Part shown: positions 29,618 to 54,510 of the stretch, piece after piece | Numbering within the stretch: position 1 is the first letter of the stretch | Layout: each line of letters opens with the position of its first letter | From: Halobacterium litoreum | GTDB lineage: Archaea; Halobacteriota; Halobacteria; Halobacteriales; Halobacteriaceae | NCBI RefSeq assembly: GCF_021233415.1 | Contig: NZ_CP089466.1 | Span: forward strand, 682,001 to 746,000 | Direction of reading: 5' to 3' | Length of the DNA: 64,000 nt | The notes under the pieces: generated by a model | Told to the model about the DNA's origin: nothing | The model's database searches: none | Seen by the model: only the letters and a program-made list of their open reading frames with translations | Program-made: the position numbers and the translations under genes

Positions 29618-29704
29618 GCCGGCTAGCGCTTCACTCGCTTCGCTCGTTGCAGTGCTTGCGTCCCGCGCCGTCGCCGAGACGGCCGCCCCTGTCAGTCCGC
29701 CCGG
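29618..29704. repeat. Degenerate fragment of the bipartite hairpin element
   Basis: Between the GNAT and priS genes, this stretch carries CTTCACTCGCTTCGCTCG, GTGCTTGCGTC, a GCCGTC/GACGGC stem (29668-29673 with 29679-29684), and then GCCCCTGTCAGTCCGCCCGG. The order and boxes match the left half of the element at 37790 (CTCGCTGCGC, GTGCTTGCGTC, CTTTCAGTCC). Similarity is partial, so it is called a remnant. Confidence 0.45.
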
Positions 29705-37187: not shown

Positions 37188-37702
37188 ACCCAGCGGAAGT
37201 CCGTGCCGGCGCGCTCGGCGGTCACCTCGTCCGAAGCGGAGTCCCCGACGAACAGCGTGCGCTCCGGCGGCACGCCGAGTTCCTCCAGCACCCACGTCAA
37301 CGCCCGCGGGTCGGGCTTCCGGGCGGGGACGGTGTCCCGGCCGGCGACGACGCTGAACGCGTCGGTGAGGCCGTGCTCGTCGAGCGCGATGCGACACGCC
37401 GCCTCGCAGTTCAGCGAACACACCGCGACGGGTGTGTCCGCGTCCGCGAGTTCGTCGGCGGTCGGCAGGCGCGTCGCGCGCGTCGCGCCGTCGCGCTCGT
37501 GCTCGGCGATGAGCTCGTGTACCTCCTCACCGATGCCCGCGCCCTCGGCGGCGTCCAGCATCTCCCACGTGTCGTACTCGTCGGGGTCCACGTCCACCGC
37601 GCGGAGCGCGCGCTCGATGTCGCGTTCGACCTCGTCCCAGTCCACGTCCAGTCGCACGAGCGTCCCGTCGAGGTCGTAGACGACGGCGTCGTAGTCGGTC
37701 AC
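37184..37702 (-). CDS. HAD-superfamily hydrolase
   Basis: 172 residues from GTG 37702. The nucleophile and general acid are Asp10 and Asp12 in VYDLDGTLVRL. The Lys motif is in PARKPDPRAL, and motif IV in VGDSASDEVTAERAG. The cap is short and helical (about 15-80), as in phosphoglycolate-phosphatase-like enzymes. The substrate is unknown. The upstream spacer carries the structured element at 37790-38075, so its promoter lies within 90 nt of that element. Confidence 0.88.
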   Translation of the reverse strand: MTDYDAVVYDLDGTLVRLDVDWDEVERDIERALRAVDVDPDEYDTWEMLDAAEGAGIGEEVHELIAEHERDGATRATRLPTADELADADTPVAVCSLNCEAACRIALDEHGLTDAFSVVAGRDTVPARKPDPRALTWVLEELGVPPERTLFVGDSASDEVTAERAGTDFRWV

Positions 37703-37789
37703 GGCCGCCTGTTCGCGGGAGGGCGTGTTATGGACTTCGGTGGCTAGCGTGGTATTTCGACTCGGAAGGCTATCTCTCAGGGAACTTTT

Positions 37790-38075
37790 CGAAAGCCCCT
37801 GCTCGCTCGACCGTCCGCGACTCGCTGCGCTCCTCGCTCCCTTCGGTCGCTTCGGTGCTTGCGTCGTCGGGGCCGAATCGAGCGAGCAGGGGCTTTCAGT
37901 CCCTCCCGCTACCGGTAACTCAGCCGGCAGATACGCGCCGACCGGCAGCCGGTAGTCGGGTGGACTGAAAGGGGCGACAGCCTCGGCGAAGGCCGACGAC
38001 GCAAGCACGGACGCGAACGGAGTGAGCGACGCGCGCAGCGAGGCGCCCGAGTCGAGGCTGTCGGGGCTTTCGAAG
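37790..38075. repeat. Bipartite hairpin element, copy A (three stem-loops)
   Basis: Hairpin 1 pairs 37791-37810 with 37878-37897 (20 perfect bp, ends GAAAGCCCC and GGGGCTTTC). The middle hairpin pairs CTTTCAGTCC (37893-37902) with GGACTGAAAG (37962-37971), extended by CCCG/CGGG and ACCGG/CCGGT. Hairpin 2 pairs 37975-37985 with 38053-38063. The loop of hairpin 2 carries GACGCAAGCACGGA and GAACGGAGTGAGCGACGCG; hairpin 1's loop is roughly its reverse complement. No coding potential. It fills the region between the divergent HAD and Gfo/Idh genes. Another copy lies at 54125-54453. Confidence 0.85.
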
Positions 38076-38126
38076 TGGTCTCCGAAGACGCTGTGAATCT
38101 AACTGCTGCCCTGACCGTGACGAACG

Positions 38127-38155: not shown

Positions 38156-39259
38156 ATGACCGAATCGCTCTCCGTCGGCGTGCTGGGGTACGGCTTCATG
38201 GGCGAGGCGCACGCGAACGCGCTCGCTCGCCTCCCGATGTTCTTCCCCGACGCGCCCGAGGTCTCGCGGGACGTGCTGATTGGCCGGGACGAGGACGCCG
38301 CCCGGGAGGCCGCCGAGCGCCTCGGATTCAACCGCGTGGCGACGGACTGGCGGGACGCAATCGACGACGTGGACGCGTTCTACAACCTCGGCCCGAATCA
38401 CGTCCACGTCGAACCCTCTATCGCCGCGCTCGATGCGGGCGTCCACGTCCTCTGTGAGAAACCGCTCGCGCCGACGCTCGACGACGCCGAGCGCATGGTC
38501 GACGCCGCCGAATCCAGCGACGCAATCGCCGGGACGGCGTTCAACTATCGCTTCGTGCCCGCGGTCCGGTACGCCAAGCGCCTGCTCGATTCGGGGGAAC
38601 TCGGCGAGGTGCGCCACGCTCGCTTCCGGTATCTGCAGGACTGGCTGACCGACGCGGACGCGCCGTGGACGTGGCGGATGGACGCCGACAGCGCGGGGTC
38701 GGGCGCGCTCGGCGACCTCGGCGCGCACAGTTTCGACCTCGCGCGCTTCCTCGTCGGCGACGTCGACGCCATTTCGGGACATCGCGAGACGTTCGTCGAG
38801 GAGCGCACGCCAGAGGGCGGCGGCGACCCGCGACCCGTAACGGTGGACGACGCGTTCTCCGCGCAGGCCGAGTTCGCCTGTGGCGCGATGGGCACCTTCG
38901 AGGCGACGCGGTGTGCGCCCGCCCGGAAGAACGGCAACACGTTCGAAATCGACGGCACCGGCGGCGCCGTCCGGTTCGACCTCGAACGCCCGAACGAACT
39001 CGACGTGAACTGGCCGGACTCCCGGGGCTTCGAGACGGTGCTCGTCACCGACGACGACGACCCCTACGGCGAGCACTGGTGGCCGCCCGGCCACGTGCTC
39101 GGGTGGGAGCACACGTTCGTCCACGAGAACTACGAGTTCCTCTCGGCGGCCGCCGACGGCGGCGCCTTCGAACCCGGCTTCGGCGACGGTCTCGCCGCCC
39201 AGCGCCTCCTCGACGCCGTCGCGCGAAGCGACGACCGCCGCGAGTGGGTGTCCGTCTGA
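38156..39259 (+). CDS. Gfo/Idh/MocA-family NAD(P)-dependent oxidoreductase
   Basis: 367 residues. A Rossmann N-terminus with VGVLGYGFMGEAHANAL (GxGxxG) and the EKP motif (LCEKPLAPT) near residue 101. The C-terminal alpha/beta domain has SGALGDLGAHSFDLARFL, the dehydrogenase fold common to inositol or glucose-fructose oxidoreductases. The substrate is unknown; sugars or polyols are likely. Start ATG 38156 with a TATA-like TTAT box ~25 nt upstream. Confidence 0.92.
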   Translation: MTESLSVGVLGYGFMGEAHANALARLPMFFPDAPEVSRDVLIGRDEDAAREAAERLGFNRVATDWRDAIDDVDAFYNLGPNHVHVEPSIAALDAGVHVLCEKPLAPTLDDAERMVDAAESSDAIAGTAFNYRFVPAVRYAKRLLDSGELGEVRHARFRYLQDWLTDADAPWTWRMDADSAGSGALGDLGAHSFDLARFLVGDVDAISGHRETFVEERTPEGGGDPRPVTVDDAFSAQAEFACGAMGTFEATRCAPARKNGNTFEIDGTGGAVRFDLERPNELDVNWPDSRGFETVLVTDDDDPYGEHWWPPGHVLGWEHTFVHENYEFLSAAADGGAFEPGFGDGLAAQRLLDAVARSDDRREWVSV

Positions 39260-41024: not shown

Positions 41025-41167
41025 ACCCGTTCTGTGGGAGGCTCCCGAGAAAAGGTGTCTGGTTTTCGTGTTTCTGCTCGGCTGGCTTTCTGGGCACAAC
41101 CGAGGACCCGATAATTCTTCGAGAGACCGAGTCGCTCTAATGAGGGTCCCCGCCGTCTACTACTCCT

Positions 41168-41206
41168 CGAAAGCCCCGGTCGGCTCGACTCGGGACGCTC
41201 GCTGAC
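41168..41206. repeat. Possible terminal fragment of the hairpin element
   Basis: CGAAAGCCCC at 41168-41177, followed by GGTCGGCTCGACTCGGGACGCTCGC. The box is identical to the first ten bases of the elements at 37790 and 54125. No right half is visible. It lies just after the AlaX stop on the minus strand. Confidence 0.35.
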
Positions 41207-54038: not shown

Positions 54039-54124
54039 CTCGGCTCTTCTTTGTGGGTCGGAGACTTAAACGGTCGGCTAGCGGTTGTGTTCGGTTTGCG
54101 CTCCTGACGTCGTGAACTCCTCCC

Positions 54125-54453
54125 CGAAAGCCCCGGCGTTGTGGACTCGCGGGCCTCGCTGCGCGCGCTCCCTACGGTCGCGTGCTTGTCTCGGGAGAGC
54201 GACCTCTCCCGTCGTTCGCCTCGCCTCGCTCGGCTCACCTTCGTCCTGCTTCGTCCACAACGCCGCCCCTTTCGAATTCCCACCCGACTACCGGCTGACC
54301 GGACGGCCGGAGTCTGCCGGCTGATTCACTGGCACGGGTGGACTGAAAGGGGCCGCGTTCTCGGGGAAGCCCGCCGACGCAAGCACGGAAGCGAACGGAG
54401 TGAGCGACGCGCACAGCGAGGCGCGCGACCCGAGAACGCGGGGGCTTTCGAAG
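54125..54453. repeat. Bipartite hairpin element, copy B (three stem-loops)
   Basis: CGAAAGCCCC at 54125-54134 is the first box, and GGGGCTTTCG (54441-54450) the last. Stem 1 pairs GGCGTTGTGGAC (54135-54146) with GTCCACAACGCC (54253-54264). Stem 2 pairs CCGCGTTCTCGG (54353-54364) with CCGAGAACGCGG (54430-54441). The middle stem pairs CACCCG (54281-54286) with CGGGTG (54335-54340). GACTGAAAGGGGC and GACGCAAGCACGGAAGCGAA are shared with copy A. The stems differ from copy A but remain complementary. Confidence 0.85.
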
Positions 54454-54510
54454 AGGGACACTCCCGAGATGGTGCCAAGAATCAGCCGTCTATGACTAGG
54501 AGCGACACCG

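Follow-up and report, generated by a model that had tools for sequence, protein, structure and literature searches.

A structured, modular repeat family of Halobacteria, probably composed of MITEs moved in trans by IS6-type transposases

What is a long palindrome doing between two divergent genes of Halobacterium litoreum, and which process placed and kept it there? The 453-nt spacer that holds it separates a minus-strand gene starting at 37702 from a plus-strand gene starting at 38156 (as called), and the palindrome, here named copy A, contains no open reading frame, in agreement with a preliminary description that had reported a spacer of this length without coding potential. That description, made from the letters alone, had left the choice between a non-coding RNA, a transposition-derived element and a chromosome-structuring site. 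We analyzed copy A in the window (the whole stretch of 64,000 nt, whose positions are used throughout), in its own genome and in related and more distant genomes. The results suggest that copy A probably belongs to a class-wide family of structured, modular MITEs, moved in trans by IS6-type transposases, in which the core is retained after insertion.

Copy A and its family

An inverted-repeat check recovered all three arm pairs exactly where the preliminary description had placed them. The first, 37791-37810 with 37878-37897 (20 nt, 100%), forms the stem of hairpin I; the second joins 37893-37915 to 37949-37971 (23 nt, 83%) and the third 37967-37985 to 38053-38071 (19 nt, 84%). A fourth pairing, the longest and absent from that description, runs between 37817-37870 and 37993-38046 (54 nt, 85%) and joins the loop sides of hairpins I and III, so that the left half of copy A, which measures 37791-38071 from box to box, repeats the right half in inverted orientation (Table 1). 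The perfect 20-bp stem is a peculiarity of copy A, because the inner-left box is GGGGCTTTC there and GCCCCTTTC in other copies. Folded as RNA, copy A has a minimum free energy of -184.8 kcal/mol versus -140.4 +/- 6.0 for shuffles (z -7.5); folded as DNA it has a z of -7.8, and in both cases the 301-nt stretch of copy A beats 100 of 100 shuffles. The window contains six instances of the box GGGGCTTTC, where 0.3 would be expected. This box excess, the folding and the covariation described below rule out a chance palindrome; indeed, the genome holds many further copies, and the compensatory changes between copies are in strong excess. No family of Rfam 15 matched the element at the gathering score.

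Table 1. Coordinates of copy A, its parts and copy B in the window
Feature	Position	Strand	Basis or remark
Whole insertion, copy A with outer arms	37744..38122	.	Comparison with empty orthologous spacers
Ends of copy A	Left, CTAG at 37744-37747; right, uncertain within 38110-38122
Left outer arm	37744..37790	-, read outward	Every-third-base rule, few exceptions
Outer-left box GAAAGCCCC (= GGGGCTTTC on the minus strand)	37791..37799	-
Left module (hairpin I), GTGCTTGC = GCAAGCAC loop motif	37787..37907	-	Covariance-model match, 93.7 bits
Centre (stem II), CTTTCAGTCCCTCCC...GGGTGGACTGAAAG and GCCGGT motifs	37893..37971	.
Right module (hairpin III), GAAAGGGGC...GCAAGCAC...GGGGCTTTC	37957..38075	+	Covariance-model match, 120.2 bits
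Outer-right box GGGGCTTTC	38063..38071	+
Right outer arm	38072..38122	+	14 triplets without G at every third position
Copy B, inverted dimer	54122..54453	.	Also delimited as 54126-54449

The unit has the order 5'-GGGTGGACT GAAAGGGGC - hairpin with GCAAGCAC and GCAGCGAGC - GGGGCTTTC-3'. Many copies consist of one unit plus a portion of the centre; others pair two units as an inverted dimer, GAAAGCCCC - hairpin I - GCCCCTTTCAGTCCCACCC ... GGGTGGGACTGAAAGGGGC - hairpin III - GGGGCTTTC, whose structure can be represented either as a four-way junction or as a single long palindrome. Typical lengths, taken from copies with recognizable repeats, are 211-341 bp, mostly 211-240 for single units and mostly 334-341 for inverted dimers. 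Small hairpins (for example, GGAAGACGAGCGAAGCGAGTCTTCCG and GGGAGAGC..GCTCTCCC) are inserted inside or beside the modules of L003, L007, L011, L014 and L026, and these nested mini-palindromes look like a second repeat family. By eye, the element centre GGGTGGGACTGAAAG resembles the 3' portion of certain archaeal CRISPR repeats (GGGATTGAAAC).

Copy A is a member of a dispersed repeat family found across many genera of Halobacteria. Used as query against its own genome (G000), it gave 58 DNA matches, and a covariance model of the right module (R1; 119 positions, 28 pairs) detected 40 modules there at E <= 1e-5; merging the modules at E <= 1e-8 gave about 26 sites. The family is carried by 12 of the 13 genomes of the genus, G007 being the only one without copies, and 27 of 40 relatives matched by DNA. 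A 21-base pattern was found in at least 120 stretches of named contigs, nearly all from Halobacteria, with one Syntrophobacterales record among the matches listed, and copies also lie on plasmids of Halobacteria. A phage origin was rejected, as none of 50,697 phage records gave a DNA match.

The window contains further matches. In copy B, the left module has an extra hairpin inserted, and outer CTAG motifs lie at 54078-54081 and 54496-54499. A truncated remnant of a unit (CCTCGAAAGCCCCGGTCGGCTCGACTCGGGACGCTCGCTG) occupies 41164-41205, by the stop codon of the 41207-42403 gene, and a weaker third match by DNA similarity (56 bits) lies at 29626-29703 (C1:711626-711703), where the covariance model detected nothing at E 1e-6.

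Ends, insertion sites and movement

Some 20-50 nt beyond the boxes, copies of other genera terminate in IS6-type terminal repeats (GGYRSTGTTCARHTA); arms from Halonotius and several MAGs finish with TTANCTGAACA[CG]T[AG]CC. Resident IS6-family elements of G009 and G011 are delimited by the same terminal repeats (GGCGGTGTTCAGATAA/GGTAGTGTTCAGATAA), and a second group of resident IS6-family elements has the repeat GGCACTGTCTAGTT and perfect 8-bp duplications. The IS6-type elements sharing terminal repeats with the family are L248, L251, L252 and L254. Among the 23 copies in which both repeats score at least 12/15, perfect 8-bp target duplications (CAACGATC, AGCGAGAG, ACGGGGTG and TGTTCCGC) flank four (L077, L104, L119 and L146), and three more (L073, L129 and L132) have a duplication at 7/8.

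At the site of copy A, G003 and G005 retain the divergent HAD/oxidoreductase pair with its two core promoters side by side, and copy A is absent. Compared with these empty spacers, the sequence of H. litoreum diverges after ACTTCGGTGG and resumes at AACGCTTA, and the insertion, arms included, lies exactly between the two core promoters. The IS6-type ends, the 8-bp duplications of other genera and the absence of copy A in relatives together identify the element as a MITE, so that the transposition-derived origin proposed earlier is supported. Movement of the family by IS6-type transposases is most likely, and these enzymes would act on the units in trans wherever they are present.

The own genus differs in its ends. 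Neither terminal repeats nor duplications of its copies, copy A included, exceed the shuffle null, except perhaps in L007, which is suggestive with a left repeat at 13/15 and a duplication at 7/8. A PF13610 transposase is present in G009, G011, G025 and G031, and a search found none in G000 or G001; since relics persist, a resident transposase is not strictly defining for an IS6-family MITE. The own lineage may thus have lost the transposase activity, with the ends decaying and new copies probably no longer arising by the IS6-type route. As the ends in the own genus carry CTAG, another transposase could also have moved these copies. Copies in the own genome combine decayed ends with intact hairpins, and the core therefore seems constrained after insertion.

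Bacterial REP/BIME elements also consist of intergenic hairpin units, single or in inverted pairs, with a unit much smaller than the one here. A REP/BIME-like element mobilized by a Y1 (HUH) transposase, its units and inverted dimers being ssDNA hairpins, would account for the monomer/inverted-dimer anatomy, the conserved hairpin feet and the intergenic location. We regard this origin as very improbable: no PF01797 (Y1) protein was found in the own genome in spite of its many sites, and a genome of the genus with two Y1 genes has zero copies. The 8-bp duplications of young copies, which Y1 elements do not make, have already largely refuted it.

Sites lean towards oriC in G000, G001, G009 and G010 (cos-to-origin, one-sided P 0.003, 0.003, 0.03 and 0.015), and in G000, with orc1 near 2.543 Mb, a site-free gap of 0.92 Mb lies opposite oriC (gap P 0.0008). 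This bias lends indirect support to the chromosome-structuring site of the preliminary description. A role in chromosome organization or replication is nevertheless hardly credible to us, since the positions of the sites differ between species and copies occur on plasmids too, and the terminus half may simply consist of more recent accessory DNA (additional orc genes at 0.97, 1.31 and 1.33 Mb), an alternative cause of the same bias.

The folded core and the outer arms

In an alignment of 91 modules, drawn both from the window and from other genera, which was fitted to the model and thereby favours pairing, 95.4% of cells are standard pairs versus 70.5% in shuffles, both sides change in 24 of 28 pairs versus 17, and double-change cells number 584 versus 174. 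Sliding the partner by 1-3 columns lowers the paired cells to 36-43%. An independent MAFFT alignment of 23 own modules has double changes in 20 of the 28 pairs. Mismatches on the module strand are G.T in 57 cells and A.C in 14 (15 and 3 in the MAFFT alignment, counted from pair types). A purely double-stranded process would treat G.T and A.C alike, and a folded single strand of module polarity, either RNA or ssDNA, is therefore favoured.

Stems also change at sites that stay in place. At the site of copy B, G005 has the element with a right stem that differs by compensated pairs (CGCGTTCTCGG/CCGAGAACGCG versus AGCGTGCTCGG/CCGAGCACGCT); G001 and G010 have only remnants, and no element was found in G002, G003, G004, G006, G007, G009 or G011. 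At three further shared sites (L005/L222, L008/L217 and L016/L219), the boxes are retained and the stems are wholly different. Similarity of stems is higher inside one genome than across genomes (P 0.014), as would follow from conversion or re-seeding between copies. The hairpin cores remain whole, and changes in their stems come as compensated pairs, in one instance at a site that has stayed in place. Selection or recombination would act on the folded single strand, be it RNA or module-strand ssDNA, and the core may be kept because this strand matters or because it is continually copied between loci. If the folded strand is indeed what these processes act on, the core is probably retained as a structured intergenic element beside core promoters.

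The covariation and the G.T excess on one strand are also compatible with the non-coding RNA suggested earlier, although the folded strand may instead be ssDNA. On this alternative, the family would be a functional structured ncRNA or cis-regulatory element (terminator, insulator or processing hairpin between transcription units) whose mobility was an ancestral accident. Some sites are common to species (at least 3 of 13 loci in G009), and the outer box lies 80-119 nt upstream of the start codon in 73 of 112 cases, as might suit such a function. We judge it unlikely from the sequence comparisons, given that sites turn over between species and one genome of the genus lacks copies, that other genera have target duplications, that starts, stops and convergent ends are adjoined alike, and that Rfam has no such family. 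The adjoining genes are ordinary ones, arranged in tandem, divergently or convergently, a context that does not point to one regulatory role. A cognate gene beside the element was rejected: an all-against-all comparison of 1,115 called neighbouring proteins gave no recurrent partner.

Towards stop codons, the commonest distance of the outer box is 40-59 nt, and the sharp peaks of these box-to-gene distances pointed to the outer arms as part of the element. Across 183 outer arms, base composition varies with every third position in register with the box, positions 5, 8, 11 ... 44 being depleted in G and enriched in C/T. Over positions 4-39, the three phases contain 777, 688 and 257 G (random phasing 574 +/- 25.5, z -12.4), and 644, 596 and 234 once similar arms are removed. 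The period is present separately in the own genome, in the genus and in other genera, and on start-facing and stop-facing sides alike; it fades beyond about 45 nt of arm, in arms that are hypervariable, and was absent within modules and from the inner flank of single units. In arms with a recognizable terminal repeat, G makes up 3.3% at the special phase versus 24-33% at the others, and 25 of 28 CTAG motifs near arm ends share that phase. Examples of the G avoidance are 38072-38110 in the window and the arms of L038, L057 and L077, where the terminal CTAG/CTGA again shares the phase. All frames of the outer arms show under-representation of ATG and CAT.

Several ordinary sources of such a period were considered and rejected. 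Coding sequence would not leave AT even over the phases or make the G-poor phase the most conserved rather than the least, and the openness of the best frame is largely predicted by column composition. Remnant coding of neighbouring genes disagrees with a signal that is equal on start and stop sides, and a decayed trinucleotide repeat with the near flatness of the other two phases. We tentatively raise, as a doubtful possibility, that the arms are read or measured in 3-nt units by a factor starting at the box, with the folded core as the retained working structure; a filament-type protein, a guide complex or translation would be candidate readers.

Relation to known elements and significance

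ISfinder lists two IS6-family MITEs of 227 and 336 bp (PMC7986276), close to the single-unit and dimer lengths measured here, and one of the two is MITEHarch3, an IS6-type haloarchaeal MITE (PMC6807381). Likened by description only, MITEHarch3 and the IS6-family MITEs share with our family a haloarchaeal name, IS6-type ends and the lack of a transposase, whereas no structured core, module dimers or period-three arms are described for MITEHarch3 (PMC6807381, PMC7986276). The MITEs of Haloquadratum similarly combine transposon-shared repeats with an unrelated core, often in genomes with no functional transposase; they are described by their terminal repeats, and no class-wide covarying core is reported for them (PMC3119063), unlike for the family here. 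The PATEs and SMRs of Haloquadratum are, like our family, palindromic non-coding mobile repeats of haloarchaea (PMC3119063). PATEs, however, have no terminal repeats and match IS605 ends, and SMRs have repeats unrelated to transposons and no target duplications (PMC3119063), while the present family has both IS6-type repeats and duplications.

In conclusion, what was an unnamed palindrome now belongs to a repeat family spanning the haloarchaea as a class, described by a covariance model, by ends defined from other genera and by a probable way of moving. The plain MITE model leaves unexplained the hairpins that stay intact after end decay, the replaced stems at shared sites and the period-three arms. 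Compensated hairpin cores that outlast their ends, and hypervariable arms whose period of three is phase-locked although they lie outside any recognized gene, are not predicted for a standard MITE. Both unpredicted features are testable in genetically tractable haloarchaea.
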